Assembly (NCBI GenBank): GCA_002712005.1
Contig: PASP01000016.1
Location: 62,001-126,000, forward strand
DNA from: Halobacteriovoraceae bacterium
GTDB lineage: Bacteria > Bdellovibrionota > Bacteriovoracia > Bacteriovoracales > Bacteriovoracaceae
DNA length: 64,000 nucleotides
Direction: 5' to 3'
The position numbers and the translations under genes were made by a program. Position 1 is the first letter of the stretch, and every line of letters begins with the position of its first letter. Under the pieces are notes generated by a model. It made no database searches. It had not been told where the DNA came from and worked only from the letters and a program-made list of their open reading frames with translations. Shown piece by piece: positions 6,300-13,603 of the stretch.

Positions 6300-7247
6300 T
6301 TATAAAATGTCTTTTGTGCTATTAGGTCCAGCAGAGTCTAATATATGAAGATTATAGATATTAGAAAGTTCTTCACAGACCTTGATACCTCTTACACTAT
6401 TTCCCCTCTTATCTAATCGAGGGCTGTAAACGGAAATGGCCATGAGTCCAGGGATGATCATTATAATCCCACCAGAGATACCACTTTTAGCGGGAACTCC
6501 AACATCAAATACCCATTCCCCTGAATAGTTATACATACCACAAGTGAGAAGGATACTCAGTACATGGCGCAAGTTCTTAGGGTCGATACAACTCTTACCT
6601 GTTTTAGGATTAACTCCTCCGTTGGCCAGAGTTGCCCCCATCATAGCGAGGTCTTCGGTATTAACTAAAATAGAACATTGATTGAAATAAAGATCTAAGT
6701 CATCTTTAAAATCTTTGGTCATAAGATTAAAGTGGCGAAGAAGATGCACAATGGCCCAATTCTTGTGACCATTTTCTCTTTCTGAAGCATATATTTCTTG
6801 ATCGATATCGAGCTCTCTTCCTGCAAAATCAGAAAAATAGCCAACCAGTTCATCTTTCTTTGTATTTTTCACTCCTGAACCAATTAGCCCAGTTGTTACA
6901 ATGGCACCAGAATTCACCATCGGATTAAAGGGTCGATTAAGATCATCTAACTTAATAATAGAATCGTAGTCTTCGCCAGTAGGCTCCATTCCAACTTTTT
7001 CTTCGACGAATTCACTTCCATGCTGCTTTAGTGCTAAGGCATAGGAAAAGGGTTTCGAAATCGACTGGATAGAAAATAAACTCTCTTTATCTCCAACACT
7101 GAAGCTTTTGCCATCTGCGGTAACGACACTTAAAGAAAAGAGATCAGGGTCAACTGCAGCAAGTGCAGGAAAGGAATGAGAAACACGACCAGAGAGGTCG
7201 TTCTTATACTTTTCATAGAGATAATGAATACACTCTTCAATTTTCAT
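6300..7247 (-). CDS. glsA: glutaminase A
   Basis: 315 residues, the usual glutaminase length. It hydrolyses L-glutamine to glutamate and ammonia in the cytoplasm. The beta-lactamase-like active site is visible: SIQSISKPF carries the Ser-x-x-Lys pair, NPMVNSGAI is the substrate-binding Asn loop, and there is a late Gly-rich segment PAKSGISGGIIMIIP. First of two genes with the ABC-F ATPase 15 bases downstream. It diverges from a DUF3750 lipoprotein gene across a 58-base gap. Confidence 0.94.
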   Translation of the reverse strand: MKIEECIHYLYEKYKNDLSGRVSHSFPALAAVDPDLFSLSVVTADGKSFSVGDKESLFSIQSISKPFSYALALKQHGSEFVEEKVGMEPTGEDYDSIIKLDDLNRPFNPMVNSGAIVTTGLIGSGVKNTKKDELVGYFSDFAGRELDIDQEIYASERENGHKNWAIVHLLRHFNLMTKDFKDDLDLYFNQCSILVNTEDLAMMGATLANGGVNPKTGKSCIDPKNLRHVLSILLTCGMYNYSGEWVFDVGVPAKSGISGGIIMIIPGLMAISVYSPRLDKRGNSVRGIKVCEELSNIYNLHILDSAGPNSTKDIL

Positions 7248-7305: not shown

Positions 7306-8022
7306 ATGAAATACTTAATTCTCTGCTTTTTACTACTTTCATGCTCTTCCAAGAGTTACCGTGACGCCAACCGAGACAGTGCACAAATGGCGCCTAAACC
7401 TTGGACACTGAAAGAAGATATTTTTCAAATCTATTATGCAAGGGCCTTCTCATGGAGAGGATACTTTGGTGTACACCCGTGGGTAAGTTGGAAGAAGAAA
7501 GAGGAGAAACACTATACGGTATCTCAGGTAACAGCTTGGAATTTAAGAAGACTCAAAACAACGATCAGCACGCGTACGGATGATCCAGACCGCTATTGGT
7601 TTGACTCTAGGCCGACGTTATTATTTGAAGCTCGAGGAGACAAAGCAACAGTCATTATTGAGAAAGTAAAGAAACTGATAAAGTCCTATCCTATGGGAGA
7701 TCGCTATGTTGTTTATCCAGGACCAAACTCGAACACTTTTGTTTCCTATTTAATTAGAAATATTCCTGAGCTCAAGGTTTCGCTACCACCCCATGCTATT
7801 GGCAAAGACTTTTTTGAATCACCCGTAACCCTGACCAGTTCTCCCTCCAATACGGGGTTTCAATTTTCGGCCTATGGTATGTTCGGCCTCACCCTTGGAT
7901 TAGAAGAAGGTATTGAACTCAATATTATTGGGCTCAATTTTGGTGTCGACTTTTGGCCACCTGCTCTTAAACTTCCCATTGTAGGGAGACTTGGGTTCCC
8001 TGAAAAAGCACTCTCCGATTAA
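7306..8022 (+). CDS. DUF3750-family lipoprotein
   Basis: 238 residues. The N-terminus MKYLILCFLLLSC ends in a lipobox, so the mature protein should be lipidated at Cys13 and held in the envelope. The rest matches the DUF3750 pattern as I recall it: RAFSWRGYFGVHPWVSWK, YTVSQVTAWNLRRL, then VVYPGPNSNTFVSYLIRNIPEL and LPPHAIGKDFF. The family is of unknown function; the conserved His, Trp and PGPNSNTF segments look like a binding or catalytic pocket. It diverges from glsA. Confidence 0.8.
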   Translation: MKYLILCFLLLSCSSKSYRDANRDSAQMAPKPWTLKEDIFQIYYARAFSWRGYFGVHPWVSWKKKEEKHYTVSQVTAWNLRRLKTTISTRTDDPDRYWFDSRPTLLFEARGDKATVIIEKVKKLIKSYPMGDRYVVYPGPNSNTFVSYLIRNIPELKVSLPPHAIGKDFFESPVTLTSSPSNTGFQFSAYGMFGLTLGLEEGIELNIIGLNFGVDFWPPALKLPIVGRLGFPEKALSD

Positions 8023-8045
8023 TTCTGGAAAATGTGACCAATAGT

Positions 8046-8073
8046 TTTATCTTTTACTTCCCTAGTCTATAAT
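8046..8073 (+). promoter_or_regulatory. candidate sigma-70 promoter of the GreA-like gene
   Basis: A perfect -10 box TATAAT lies at 8068-8073, 37 bases upstream of the GreA-like start. The best -35 candidate, TTTATC, is 16 bases before it and is weak. Confidence 0.45.
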
Positions 8074-8109
8074 TAGATTTTCTATAAGTTTAATTAAACG
8101 CGAGTATTT

Positions 8110-8583
8110 ATGAATAAAGAAGCCATTCTCAATCATCTCAAAGATCAACTTCAATCTGAATTTCAAAAGGCCAAGTTAGCGTATGAAACCTCTCGTAAAC
8201 ATGCCACTAGCGATGAAATGAAATCTGAAGGTAAATACGATACTCGTTCTATTGAAGCCGGATATTTAGCGGGTGCTCAGAAAAGAAGAGTCGATGAACT
8301 TGAAGAAGAAGTAAAACTCTTAGATGAAATCGATCTCAGCCTACCCAATGATACGGTAAGCGTAGGAAGCCTAGTCAATATAGAATTTAATGATATTGAA
8401 CGTACTTACTTTATTAGTTCTACTTCAGGTGGAAGTATGATTAAAAATGAAAGTGGAGTCATATTAGTGATCAGTGCTTTTTCACCTATAGGCGTAGAGG
8501 TCATTGGTCTAAGTTCAGGCGATAGCTTTGAAGTCGAAATTCAAGGTAATACGAGAGAATACACCGTTAAGTCCATTTCTTAA
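8110..8583 (+). CDS. GreA/GreB-like transcription elongation factor
   Basis: 157 residues in two parts. An N-terminal coiled-coil hairpin (about 1-75) carries an acidic tip, ATSDEMKSEGKYDTRSIEAGYL. A C-terminal FKBP-like domain (about 85-157) ends in FSPIGVEVIGLSSGDSFEVE and TREYTVKSIS, the usual Gre C-terminal pattern. Gre factors enter the RNA polymerase secondary channel and help cleave backtracked RNA; the acidic tip suggests the same here. It is divergent enough from standard GreA that another secondary-channel role is possible. Its 3' end overlaps the convergent small membrane protein gene by 17 bases. Confidence 0.75.
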   Translation: MNKEAILNHLKDQLQSEFQKAKLAYETSRKHATSDEMKSEGKYDTRSIEAGYLAGAQKRRVDELEEEVKLLDEIDLSLPNDTVSVGSLVNIEFNDIERTYFISSTSGGSMIKNESGVILVISAFSPIGVEVIGLSSGDSFEVEIQGNTREYTVKSIS

Positions 8584-8941
8584 GCTTTAAGTTAAGTAAG
8601 GCCAAAGGAATCACACTTAAAAAGGCTCCAAGTCCCAAAGCCCCTCCCATTCCTTTTATAAAGGGTGCGAGTTGAAAAAAATAGAGATAGAAGAGAAAAC
8701 AGCTAAACGAAAGTAGCCATGGATGAATTCTACTCACTCCAGACATACCGATAAAACTTCCACCAAAGAATAACACTTCACTAAAATAGTGAAATTTGAA
8801 CGAAAAAAGTGATTCCACGAAAAGAAAAATAAGAGTTGTTCCCACTGAAGCTCTAATAGGACCAATAAAAGAAACTCGCGATAAATAAAAGGTCGAGTAA
8901 GCACTTACCAAAATAAGAATAAGACAAATTAGAGTATCCAT
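8567..8941 (-). CDS. small membrane protein, second of a homologous pair
   Basis: 124 residues from ATG at 8941, which has a GGGGAG ribosome site (an upstream TTG at 8953 is less likely). It is hydrophobic, with about four membrane segments. It is clearly homologous to the protein encoded just upstream: both carry GSFxGM at residues 61-66 and a G-x-GG-x-LG motif followed by AF-x-SV (97-109 here). It overlaps that gene by 13 bases and ends the run kinase, porin, binding protein, membrane pair. Two small proteins sharing a fold and a start-stop overlap suggest a heterodimeric channel or carrier. I do not recognise the family. Confidence 0.8.
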   Translation of the reverse strand: MDTLICLILILVSAYSTFYLSRVSFIGPIRASVGTTLIFLFVESLFSFKFHYFSEVLFFGGSFIGMSGVSRIHPWLLSFSCFLFYLYFFQLAPFIKGMGGALGLGAFLSVIPLALLNLKLKKWT

Positions 8942-9309
8942 ACATCTCCCCAACCTTTTAATAGGTAAAATAGAGCAACTGAGATGAATGCAATAGTGCC
9001 CAATTTACCACCTATTCCATTAAATAAATCGATAAGAAGATAATAGAGAACACTACCAAGTAGCGAAATCAAGATAATTTCGTATTCACTTTGAATCAGT
9101 TCACTTGAACACATTCCAGCAAAGGAGCCACTATAAATAGCAGCGGGGCAATGATTCCATAAGTTATTTTTCTTACTTTGAATGAAACTTCCTACAAACC
9201 CAACAAGGCATGAAGAGAGGACTACAGAAAGGGAGAAATAATAGTGTCCCCAAAAACACAAAAGGCATCCTAGAATGAATGAAGGAAGAACGGGCCATTT
9301 ATTATTCAT
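8929..9309 (-). CDS. small membrane protein, first of a homologous pair
   Basis: 126 residues, hydrophobic, with predicted membrane segments near 7-37, 72-95 and 100-118. It carries GSFAGM (61-66) and GIGGKLG (98-104), matching the downstream neighbour at almost the same positions. Its ATG overlaps the stop of the PstS-like binding protein by eight bases, so translation is coupled. The context (periplasmic binding protein and outer membrane porin in the same run) points to transport of a small solute across the inner membrane. No known transporter family was recognised, and no ATPase subunit is present. Confidence 0.8.
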   Translation of the reverse strand: MNNKWPVLPSFILGCLLCFWGHYYFSLSVVLSSCLVGFVGSFIQSKKNNLWNHCPAAIYSGSFAGMCSSELIQSEYEIILISLLGSVLYYLLIDLFNGIGGKLGTIAFISVALFYLLKGWGDVWIL

Positions 9310-9784
9310 TAGATATCAGTTTAATCGATTTCACAGAAGGTCTCTCTAATTTATTCCACTCTTTCTCTGGTATCACAGCAATAGCTCCTTTAAGAATACC
9401 AATGAGTTTAATAAGTGAGGAGACATCCCCTTCCTTAGGCTTAGTTAGGCCTTTCGTGAATTTTTGCTCAATCCAAAATCTTGGATACTGTGAACTATTG
9501 AAACCAAGAAATAAACGAGAAAATTCATTAAATTTTTCGTGACTGGGCTCTAAAAAGAGAGGTACAGCGCGATTATTCTCAGACCAAAAAAGTTTCTGCT
9601 TTAATAGAATTCTTCTCAATTCGACTTTAGATAACGAAACAAGAGGATTACTTGAATGGACAGCAACAACCCAATTTTTATAAGGATCTTCAATTGATTT
9701 CTTTAAAGAAGTCTCAGCACTGGCGTAAATCTTCTGAGGATAAAGAAAAGAAGATAGGAGGAATATTGTTTGGAGACTCATCAT
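9302..9784 (-). CDS. PstS-like periplasmic phosphate-binding-type protein
   Basis: 160 residues from the ATG at 9784, which overlaps the porin stop as TAATG; an upstream ATG at 9808 is possible but gives a poorer signal peptide. An exported N-terminus (SLQTIFLLSSFLYPQKIYA) precedes a short PBP-like domain: AVHSSNPLVSLSKVELRRIL, FWSENNRAVPLFL, FNEFSRLFLG, YPRFWIEQKFTKG and KGAIAVIPEKEW. This order is typical of short PstS-like binding proteins. The domain is shorter than a true PstS, and no pst permease or ATPase genes are present. It may present anions to the paired membrane proteins or to the sensor kinase encoded upstream. Confidence 0.78.
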   Translation of the reverse strand: MMSLQTIFLLSSFLYPQKIYASAETSLKKSIEDPYKNWVVAVHSSNPLVSLSKVELRRILLKQKLFWSENNRAVPLFLEPSHEKFNEFSRLFLGFNSSQYPRFWIEQKFTKGLTKPKEGDVSSLIKLIGILKGAIAVIPEKEWNKLERPSVKSIKLISNE

Positions 9785-10965
9785 TAAAAACTTAATACAG
9801 TCCCCCATTCAATACTGGTAAAATCTCTACTTATACCATCAAGTCGATTATTCTTTCCTACGTAAACAGTACGGCTCACACCTAGAGAAATACGCCAATT
9901 AGCGATTGGTAAAAAATTATATCCAAAAGTATACTCATAGAATTCAACGGGATCCCTCAAGGCTTCTGTATTCACATCTCTATCGTGATCGAGATATCTT
10001 ATTCCGAGAGTATCGTGTAAGTAGTCAAATCGACTGTAGAGAATGTGACGATGATCAACAAGATGATACCAAGGTTCAAAATAAAATGAGATTGGATTTT
10101 GGTCAATTCTGTTTTTACTTTGATCCAAGTCGCTCATGAAAAGCTCACTTCTAAATTCAAAGAACCCTATTCTTGCTTTCATATCGAGACCAAAGGAATA
10201 GTAGCGACCAAAAGAACTTCGCTGCCCCGTTTGAAAACTCGTGCCTACCTTAAGGTTACCTTCCTCAGAGCGATAACCCAAGCGGTAACCTGTAGCGAAG
10301 CGATTTCGGTCCTCATCAATAGAGCCTAAATATAGAGAACTTTCAAGAAGACCACGATCTAGCTGATATCTTGTATCAACCGAAAAGCCCCTAACATGAT
10401 CATCAAAGAAAATAAATTCGCCTTGATTTTCTCTAAGCGCAAGAGGTTTTTCATTTTGCCATCTCAAAAAATCAAAGTGCTCCCGATTACTTACTCCAAA
10501 AGGAGTAATTAAAGCACCAAAATTAAAACTTAGAATATCGTTACTACGGTAAGTAAGAAAAAGGTCTTCAACTTCGACCTGTTGGTCATCATCTCCAAAA
10601 GTACGAAAATAAGCATGATGGTTAACGATCTCTCTTTCTTGCTCAAATTCAATATGCGAAAAAAAACTTAGATTCTCCGACACTTGTCCATTAAGCATCA
10701 ATCCCATCTCCACTTCATCGAATGTCTGAACATTTCGAGCATGGGGAAGAGACCAACTGGTCCCAGTAAGATTGAAGTACCCACCTAAGCTCAATGAAAG
10801 AGACTCAAAAGAAGAGATTTTCCCTTTCGAATGCTTACTCAAAAGTAAAGAATTCTCCAATTCATCAATACGATGATTCAGTCGATCGATATCTGCACCG
10901 GAATGAGAATGAACAGGATTTAGAAATCCGCCACAGAGGAGAGCTCCTAACAGTATTTTTTTCAT
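9784..10965 (-). CDS. OprO/OprP-like outer membrane porin
   Basis: 393 residues. A signal peptide (MKKILLGALLCGGFLNPVHSH) is followed by a short coiled coil (about 25-45). The remainder alternates like a beta-barrel, with many aromatic strand ends and a C-terminal Phe (EWGTVLSF) as in outer membrane proteins. Segments such as LITPFGVSNREHFDFLRW resemble porins of the phosphate-selective group, though the selectivity is not readable from sequence. It sits between the kinase (32 bases upstream) and the PstS-like gene, which it overlaps. A second porin of this type is at 61132-62352. Confidence 0.8.
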   Translation of the reverse strand: MKKILLGALLCGGFLNPVHSHSGADIDRLNHRIDELENSLLLSKHSKGKISSFESLSLSLGGYFNLTGTSWSLPHARNVQTFDEVEMGLMLNGQVSENLSFFSHIEFEQEREIVNHHAYFRTFGDDDQQVEVEDLFLTYRSNDILSFNFGALITPFGVSNREHFDFLRWQNEKPLALRENQGEFIFFDDHVRGFSVDTRYQLDRGLLESSLYLGSIDEDRNRFATGYRLGYRSEEGNLKVGTSFQTGQRSSFGRYYSFGLDMKARIGFFEFRSELFMSDLDQSKNRIDQNPISFYFEPWYHLVDHRHILYSRFDYLHDTLGIRYLDHDRDVNTEALRDPVEFYEYTFGYNFLPIANWRISLGVSRTVYVGKNNRLDGISRDFTSIEWGTVLSF

Positions 10966-10997
10966 AATAATATATTAAGATGCCTACTGAGTATTGC

Positions 10998-12806
10998 CTA
11001 GTTTTTTATTTGGACAGCACCGAGGAACTCAAGCCTAAAGGTCACTGGCTTTAAACAATCCAGTTTAAGATCGATATCGTTTCTTTGGCAAAGCGAATGA
11101 GCAATAGAAAGCCCCATGCCTATTCCATTAGTCTTGGTTGTATAGAACGGATCAAATAATTTAGTGGCCACATCTTTAGAAATCGCAGCTCCATTATTTC
11201 TGAATAGAATAAATAACCTTCCTTCATCGTATACCATTTTAAAAGAGATCACTCCCTGTTCGATATGACTTCGACTAATGGCTTCATAAGCATTGGTTAC
11301 TAAACTTTGGAGGATTTGATCAATATCCGCCCGATGAACGAGGACTTCAACTTTCTTATCAATATAAGATGTCTTCACCTCTATCCCTAAAGACTTCAAT
11401 TTTTCTTGATTTAAGCTTAGGTGAGACTCTATCAATTCTTCAAGATCAACCATGGATCTCATCACCTTATCATTCTGATTTCCAAAACTTTGCATAACAA
11501 ACATAATGGAACTAATTCTTTCTGAAACTCGGCTCAGCCTTTCAATAATTTTCTCAACCTTCTCACTTAAATGCCCTTCTCGAATAAGGATCTTATTTAA
11601 TCGAGATAGCGATCCTTTCATGATCATCAATGGATTATTTATTTCGTGAGCTATACTCCCCGACATTTCACCTAATGATGCCATCTTACTATTATGAAAT
11701 AACTGCTTTGATTTCTCTCGCAATTCTTCTATCTTCTTTTCACCACTTCCATCTTTTAAAACCACTATAATCTTATTCTTCTGCTCCACTTTGTCATAGT
11801 AATTCAAAAATGTTCCAAGAATCTCCTTCATTTCTCCTCGACTGCTTAAACACTGGAATGAAATATTGAAAAGCTTTTTAGCATTTTGGTAGTATTTCAA
11901 TTCAAGTTCTTCAAATAGCCCCTCAGTATTTAAGATAAAATTGAGCTTCTTATTTTCAACTTCAAAAGACTCCCAGCCTAAAAGCTTTTTAATCTCCTTA
12001 GTACAACTAAGAACTGTGAAATCAGTTCTGCAAACAAGAAAGGTTTCTTGAGTAAAGTGGAGGTAATCCCTTATCTTCTCATCTTGAAGTTCTAGCTTAT
12101 GGTATTGCAAATCCATTTTTTCTTTTAGTGCAAAAATTGATCGTTCATTTATTTTTGGCTGATCGGCGACACTTCCCTTAAGAAGATCATATAAATAATC
12201 ATTCAAAGAAATGAGATCAAACTTCATAATGAATAATCTTTTAAGTAAGATGATAAAAGATAACGAGATAAGGCTTAAAGCAAATAAGCGAATCAACTTA
12301 AGCTTTTCAATTTCGAATGATTTAATTTCAACATTATCATTCAATACGCTTTGAGTTTCTTTTCTAAAACGAGTTAAGAAGTCTTCAAGATTGGAAAAAT
12401 CAACATGATCTTTTTCCACTAAGGCCAATAGATCAATTAGTGGATTTACCTCTTTTACCCAACGACGATTTAAAAGTTTAAAACGTGGATAATTTCGTTT
12501 CGAAGCCAAATAATTGAGTTGAACTTCTATTTGATTACGTAAGTTTCTTATTTCTTGATGATTTGATTTTTCTTTATAGGGATCTGTTATATAAAAGTGA
12601 TTCTCTAGAAGTATTTCAACTTTTTCCACATGAGATAGAGTTCTTAAAATAACCGATTGGTCTTTAAGCGTGTAATTAGTCGTTTTTTCCAAACGATTGC
12701 CATAGTAAAAAGAGAGTAAGGAGCCTATTAGAAGCATGATCATCGCCGCCCATAAGGCGTAATCGATCCCAGAAATAATGGTACTTATTTTCTTTTTTAG
12801 AGGCAT
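10998..12806 (-). CDS. membrane sensor histidine kinase, orphan
   Basis: 602 residues from ATG at 12806; a longer GTG frame would overlap the thioesterase gene and adds no recognisable sequence. It has TM1 near 16-35, a roughly 140-residue helical periplasmic region, TM2 near 173-194, a PAS-like region (about 250-352), then an H-box MASLGEMSGSIAHEINNPL with the phosphorylated His at 387. N-box (LVTNAYEAI), G1-like (FRNNGAAIS) and G2 (GIGMGLSIAHSL) motifs follow. No response regulator lies nearby. It heads the porin/binding protein/membrane pair run, so it probably senses the solute that run handles. Confidence 0.88.
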   Translation of the reverse strand: MPLKKKISTIISGIDYALWAAMIMLLIGSLLSFYYGNRLEKTTNYTLKDQSVILRTLSHVEKVEILLENHFYITDPYKEKSNHQEIRNLRNQIEVQLNYLASKRNYPRFKLLNRRWVKEVNPLIDLLALVEKDHVDFSNLEDFLTRFRKETQSVLNDNVEIKSFEIEKLKLIRLFALSLISLSFIILLKRLFIMKFDLISLNDYLYDLLKGSVADQPKINERSIFALKEKMDLQYHKLELQDEKIRDYLHFTQETFLVCRTDFTVLSCTKEIKKLLGWESFEVENKKLNFILNTEGLFEELELKYYQNAKKLFNISFQCLSSRGEMKEILGTFLNYYDKVEQKNKIIVVLKDGSGEKKIEELREKSKQLFHNSKMASLGEMSGSIAHEINNPLMIMKGSLSRLNKILIREGHLSEKVEKIIERLSRVSERISSIMFVMQSFGNQNDKVMRSMVDLEELIESHLSLNQEKLKSLGIEVKTSYIDKKVEVLVHRADIDQILQSLVTNAYEAISRSHIEQGVISFKMVYDEGRLFILFRNNGAAISKDVATKLFDPFYTTKTNGIGMGLSIAHSLCQRNDIDLKLDCLKPVTFRLEFLGAVQIKN

Positions 12807-12850: not shown

Positions 12851-13603
12851 TTAGTGAGTAGAATATAAACACTGGACTAGCATACTTGGTTTCCTCGCTC
12901 CTGGAACACGTCCCAAATAAGAGACCCTGGAGTGCTCATCACTATGGCTGAGGTCTTTATAGACCTCAATTTCATCACCTAATTTAACTTCACTGAGAAA
13001 ATTAATATGATATTCGGTCACGACATGGGTACTGTGATATTGAAAGTCGATAGAATCTAATACCCACTGACTATACTTTGTATTATTCACATGGCCGTTG
13101 AGGTCTAAATCAGAGTTTCTTGTATGAAAACGACAAACTTTTTCTAAATCTTTTTCTTCTATAGAGACTTCGACTTTGCTCGCCTCATAATCAAGGGCCT
13201 TATCCGATCGAATATCCAAAGGTAAATTCTTTAAAGGGATTTCAGTTGGTCTTCTCGTTTGCGCATTTAATGTTACCCAAGTTGTCGTCGCCGTTCCAAT
13301 GAGTTCATCTTGAGAATAGATCTCAAAATCTCGGTAGGCATAATAGGAGTCAGGAAGACGAGACCAGGTTTTAACTGTTATGGTCGAAAATAATGCAGGC
13401 CATTTCTTCATTTTTATACTCTTACGAATGAGGACCCAAAAGACCGATTTTTCGAGCATCTCTTCGTGGCCAAATCCTGCATCTTTAGCGTGAAAAGTTG
13501 CAATATCTTGCAAAATTCCGACTAAGCCTAGCAGGCCTAGTCTCTTATGAGAATTAGAGGTAAAAGTATCAATTACATAATCTTTAGAATAGATACCTTT
13601 CAT
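12851..13603 (-). CDS. acyl-ACP thioesterase (FatA-like, double hotdog)
   Basis: 250 residues. It should hydrolyse acyl-acyl carrier protein to free fatty acid in the cytoplasm. N-terminal hotdog features include LLGLVGILQDIATFHAKDAGFG and FWVLIRKSIKMKKWP. The second hotdog has the family signature HTRNSDLDLNGHVNNTKY followed by W-x-LDS, with the Asn/His residues used in catalysis. It lies 2 bases after the DUF3347 gene and 44 bases before the kinase, so it sits in the same transcript. The reason for the link with copper genes is unknown. Confidence 0.88.
   Translation of the reverse strand: MKGIYSKDYVIDTFTSNSHKRLGLLGLVGILQDIATFHAKDAGFGHEEMLEKSVFWVLIRKSIKMKKWPALFSTITVKTWSRLPDSYYAYRDFEIYSQDELIGTATTTWVTLNAQTRRPTEIPLKNLPLDIRSDKALDYEASKVEVSIEEKDLEKVCRFHTRNSDLDLNGHVNNTKYSQWVLDSIDFQYHSTHVVTEYHINFLSEVKLGDEIEVYKDLSHSDEHSRVSYLGRVPGARKPSMLVQCLYSTH

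Follow-up and report, generated by a model that had tools for sequence, protein, structure and literature searches.

A split 5+5 inverted-repeat membrane protein and its unnamed family, encoded in a Halobacteriovoraceae bacterium next to a kinase, porin-like and PstS-like gene module

Two adjacent genes of a Halobacteriovoraceae bacterium, mem1 and mem2, encode a split 5+5 inverted-repeat membrane protein. They lie in the window, the 64,000-nt stretch of DNA that we analyzed as part of a 3.96-Mb genome, at the end of a run of genes that begins with a sensor kinase gene, a porin-like gene and a PstS-like gene (Table 1). The pair is a member of a widespread, unnamed family of familiar architecture that is absent from Pfam and NCBIfam, and the existence of a 5+5 inverted-repeat family that is found in several phyla and missing from both collections represents a gap in the transporter catalog. 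We consider it probable that the run is made up of two modules and that mem1 and mem2 are the parts of a split, undescribed 5+5 inverted-repeat protein, an antiparallel and pseudo-symmetric heterodimer that would most likely move a small solute.

Gene layout and architecture of the membrane pair

The first-pass annotation of this DNA had described a run of five co-directional genes, of which the last four overlap start to stop. The ORF coordinates bear this out, with all five genes on the minus strand and in the order claimed. The kinase and porin-like genes are separated by 32 nt in the sequence, and the overlaps that follow, also read from the sequence, are of 1 nt between the porin-like and PstS-like genes (TAATG), 8 nt between the PstS-like gene and mem1, and 13 nt between mem1 and mem2.

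Table 1. Genes of the five-gene run, with positions in the window. The start codons of the kinase (12803), PstS-like (9784) and mem2 (8941) genes were read off the sequence.
Gene	Coordinates	Strand	Product
kinase gene	12803(ATG)-10998	minus	membrane sensor histidine kinase; HisKA + HATPase_c (Pfam)
porin-like gene	10965-9784	minus	outer-membrane porin-like; homologs adjoin PstS-like genes in L279, L282
PstS-like gene	9784-9302	minus	exported, ~one PBP lobe; family profile matches PstS structures
mem1	9309-8929	minus	126-aa 5-helix membrane protein, first repeat half, N-in/C-out
mem2	8941(ATG)-8567	minus	124-aa 5-helix membrane protein, second repeat half, N-out/C-in

The homology of mem1 and mem2, which had been asserted at first sight, is detected by profile-profile comparison with an hhalign probability of 99%. 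AlphaFold models, for which mem1 was entered with 45 orthologs and mem2 with 44, consist of five helices each and have pLDDT values of 91.9 (mem1) and 92.1 (mem2). When the loops are set by the model helices, lysine and arginine residues are in excess on the N-terminal side in 45/45 mem1 orthologs and on the C-terminal side in 44/44 mem2 orthologs, a bias of +4.6 K/R for mem1 versus -6.2 for mem2 to which there are no exceptions. By the positive-inside rule, these opposite biases indicate that mem1 and mem2 are antiparallel in the membrane. The family thus displays homologous halves, an odd number of helices, opposite topology and natural fusions of the halves, as looked for in an inverted-repeat architecture. 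An antiparallel pair is supported by the homology, the opposite charge bias, the constant gene pairing and the natural fusions, and we propose that mem1 and mem2 would insert antiparallel to form a pseudo-symmetric heterodimer. Such a heterodimer would most likely reside in the inner membrane and transport a small solute, as do other antiparallel inverted-repeat carriers and channels.

The conserved motifs of mem1 are YxGSFxGM and GxGGKLGxIAF. The GGK of the first half is retained in nearly all groups; in the second half, most of the fused forms have GGK, and the split forms found in the Bdellovibrionota, Pseudomonadota and Bacteroidota mostly have GGA or GGG.

Distribution and relation to known families

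Homologs of mem1 are encoded by 36/129 and homologs of mem2 by 35/129 genomes of the order, where they are found side by side, and the pair is present in 58/369 genomes of the phylum in variable contexts. When 84,980 species genomes were scanned, 325 relatives came to light across bacteria, 80 of which were kept for neighborhood analysis. The retained relatives are from Pseudoalteromonas, Alteromonas, Psychrosphaera, Opitutae and many Bacteroidota, together with single loci from the Thermotogota, Mycoplasmatota, Bacillota and Chloroflexota. Every two-gene locus is co-directional (124/124, with a few loci counted twice), the genes mostly overlapping or touching, and the overlap is exactly 4 nt in 60/112 two-gene loci outside the Bacillota set. 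A fused single protein of ~300-320 residues with both repeats is encoded by some Bacillota, Mycoplasmatota, Thermotogota and Chloroflexota; in ten of these proteins that were compared with the repeat profile, each half matches it, at 42-91 bits. The split form is also present in other Bacillota, and in the Bacteroidota the first protein has ~60 additional N-terminal residues.

In a tree of 106 halves, a single branch parts the 53 first halves from the 53 second halves; this separation recurs in 93% of the bootstrap trees, the branch's own support being only 94/27, and with shuffled labels 35.8 changes are expected. Because the first and second halves form two groups in the tree, it is likely that the duplication is older than the change between split and fused forms. 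The split two-gene and fused forms together provide a clean case in which to study the origin of inverted-repeat membrane proteins.

No recurring informative neighbor of the pair was seen in the non-Bacillota loci that we looked at. Individual loci have their own peculiarities: a second-half protein is C-terminally fused to what by eye is a GNAT acetyltransferase-like part, for a total of 271 aa (L065:7442-8257); one Bacillota genome has tandem fused copies with a small ORF between them (L293:4917-7221); and in a Gramella genome the first-half gene is preceded, at a distance of 94 nt, by a histidine kinase gene (L193:7447-10375), the second-half gene not being detected by ORF search in the fetched stretch.

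The first-pass annotation had named a match of the two membrane proteins to a known, unrelated family as a result that would count against its reading, and the search for a known-family match came out negative in Pfam, NCBIfam and the PDB. Neither mem1 nor mem2 matches any Pfam or NCBIfam family above cut-off, neither has a sequence match in the PDB, and Foldseek found no PDB fold match at E < 0.001 for either AlphaFold model. When 89 pair members were compared with Pfam, no family was common to more than three of them, and those matches were weak. The VIA-align rows for Rnf, Mtr, 4u9l and a urea transporter have Z scores of about 5-6, which is the noise level for helical models. Kinship with TM7S3/TM198 (PF13886) was rejected, the score being 18.4 bits against a cut-off of 29.2 and in 1/45 members only, as was a defense function, for which there was no PADLOC match. 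Literature searches found neither the pair nor the kinase/porin/PstS-like trio described, a weak negative given that a search by name does not work for sequence families.

Urea transporters (SLC14/UT) are 5+5 inverted-repeat proteins. A urea transporter is the rank-1 Foldseek match of mem1, a weak match that is not significant (E 1.2), and it aligns by VIA-align with a Z of about 5 over ~87 residues; it is, however, one chain, and the pair has no urea-transporter Pfam match. A parallel in gene organization, which led us to suspect a kinship by eye, is found in the YjjP/YjjB and ThrE proteins (PF06738, PF12821), exporters with homologous five-helix halves that are split in E. coli; as in our family, the two homologous membrane halves are encoded by adjacent genes or fused, and there is a short resemblance around ASxLVGxxG. 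Distant membership of the pair in the ThrE/YjjP-YjjB superfamily is nevertheless unlikely, since hhalign probabilities are 0.5-6.7%, whereas the controls reach 99% for mem1/mem2 and 97% for YjjB/YjjP, and the ThrE_2 and ThrE Pfam profiles match 0/89 members. Profile comparison thus detects no sequence relation, and the pair has neither the N-terminal cytoplasmic domain of YjjP nor the VPG motif of ThrE_2 sequences. YjjB has no detectable homolog among solved structures.

Genomic context in the Bacillota and the putative substrate

The family is present in 25/348 Bacillota genomes, and in 12/25 of these FdhD is encoded immediately upstream on the same strand. Pfam confirmed FdhD in three of the 12 and also confirmed MobA and MoeA neighbors, and SelD is among the genes neighboring Bacillota family members as well. 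In other Bacillota loci, Pfam identifies molybdopterin oxidoreductases (formate dehydrogenase), namely in L295 and L306; the neighbor in L294 is by Pfam an FeFe hydrogenase, and its reading as a formate dehydrogenase was rejected on that assignment. The FdhD link is exhibited by split and fused Bacillota forms alike and so originated or persisted in two or more deep branches. FNT genes are present in 3/25 Bacillota genomes with the pair versus 22/45 FdhD-bearing genomes without it (p 0.0017, kinship uncorrected), and the genome-wide co-occurrence of the pair and FdhD in the Bacillota is marginal (17/25 vs 176/348, p 0.054). The FdhD neighborhood and the few FNT genes point to formate as the leading candidate substrate in the Bacillota, and our best guess, from these genomic neighbors, is that the pair would move formate or a similar small anion there.

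FNT subunits have six helices and are pentameric. The FocA/FNT formate channels (PF01226) may perform the same job as the pair in the Bacillota, where the pair adjoins FdhD or formate dehydrogenase genes, but a sequence match is absent: the FNT profile PF01226 matches neither the pair nor its relatives. We advance tentatively the wider proposal that an unnamed formate/small-anion transporter family replaces FocA-type channels in many anaerobic Bacillota and has the same or a related anion as substrate in predatory and marine relatives. If the formate link is true, formate uptake would be explained in bacteria that possess formate dehydrogenase but not FNT. An acetogen genome with formate dehydrogenase and without FNT genes has been described, for which formic acid diffusion was invoked (PMC10213532).

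The formate reading may not hold in the Bdellovibrionota, because the pair and FdhD are found together in 0/58 genomes (about 3 expected) and the window's own genome, from which FdhD is absent, encodes an FNT protein (a FocA homolog). Exclusion of FNT within the Bdellovibrionota is in the same direction and not significant (3/32 vs 8/32, p 0.09). For the window's organism the formate link is weak, and the pair encoded there is probably a small-solute transporter.

The Bacillota neighbors FdhD, MobA, MoeA and SelD and the enzymes themselves would also suit a non-transport role, in which the pair anchors formate dehydrogenase or hydrogenase in the membrane or helps to assemble it, with some other role outside the Bacillota. 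We regard this as improbable, since most carriers of the pair, in the Bdellovibrionota, Alteromonadales and Bacteroidota, have no such genes nearby, and the pair and FdhD are never in the same Bdellovibrionota genome.

The kinase, porin-like and PstS-like genes

The first-pass annotation was correct that the sensor kinase, confirmed by its HisKA and HATPase_c domains, has no adjoining response regulator, and that there is no ABC ATPase or permease in the five-gene run. Its naming of the porin as OprP-like found no support: the window porin has no Pfam match, the Porin_O_P (OprP/OprO) profile matches neither it nor its L279 homolog, and a three-sequence porin profile has no match in the PDB. 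The term PstS-like is justified by the match of the family profile to PstS structures (E 2.4e-6) and has to be qualified in that only about one PBP lobe is present.

Homologs of the PstS-like protein are encoded in 15/125 genomes of the order, the window's included. PBP_like_2 (PF12849) is matched at E <= 1 by 7/15 of them, with a best value of 7.7e-6, but the window copy by itself has no such match, so that the sequence relation to PBP_like_2 and PstS is found at the level of the family. The PstS-like protein shares with these proteins the profile match and has a signal-peptide-like N terminus, and it differs from them in comprising roughly one lobe and in having no adjoining ABC transporter. 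Judged by these profile matches, the members of the PstS-like family are truncated PBPs.

In 12/14 other loci, the gene next to the PstS-like gene encodes an exported protein 317-413 residues long. Those of L279 (E 7.5e-62) and L282 (E 9.6e-21) are homologs of the window porin; the remaining ones are called porin-like by size, signal-like N terminus and position only. Kinases are encoded near the PstS-like gene in L280 and L282, where they are identified by Pfam, and in L283, L284, L285, L288 and L290, where they are recognized from their resemblance to the window kinase. In several genomes of the L283-L290 group, the PstS-like gene is divergent from or convergent to the porin-like gene and the kinase. 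Because the orientations of the three genes vary across several genomes, the trio constitutes a neighborhood rather than a fixed operon. It likely represents a ligand-sensing envelope module.

None of the order's 14 other PstS-like loci contains the pair. Conversely, when all ORFs of 35 loci of the order with their flanks were searched with iterated profiles, the pair proteins were present in 35/35, and the only genes detected with the porin and PstS profiles were those of the window itself. Kinases are encoded near the pair in nine other loci of the order, without porin and PstS genes, and in three related genomes (L068, L074, L077) the kinase follows the pair. The five-gene run is not found among 16 further loci of the phylum or 80 loci of other phyla, and in the latter no porin or PstS homolog is next to the pair. 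The claim that the five genes form one system, for which conservation of the gene order had been set beforehand as the test, therefore fails: the full run is in no other genome across these three sets, and the order is kept in no relative examined. On this comparison of neighborhoods, the five-gene run is a local juxtaposition of two independent modules. That the five genes are instead one envelope system, in which the porin admits a ligand, the PstS-like protein binds it and the pair carries it inward or signals to the kinase, is very unlikely, because the tight overlapping run in the window, the weak co-occurrence of the PstS-like gene and the pair in the order (8/15, p 0.036, kinship uncorrected) and the co-directional kinase after the pair in those three related genomes are set against an arrangement found in no other genome examined and same-genus genomes that encode the pair without a PstS homolog.

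With two modules, the kinase/porin/PstS-like module would simply be located directly upstream of the pair in this genome and may be co-transcribed with it. The gene directly upstream of the kinase (window 12851-13603) resembles by eye an acyl-ACP thioesterase gene, and the five-gene run may belong to a longer transcript. On the other side of the run, the plus strand (window 7306-8583) encodes a DUF3750 protein (Pfam E 5e-43) and, after it, at 8110-8583, a protein with a GreA/GreB C-terminal domain; the 3' end of the latter gene overlaps the 3' end of mem2 by 17 nt. A probable glutaminase, recognized by eye, is encoded at window positions 6300-7247.
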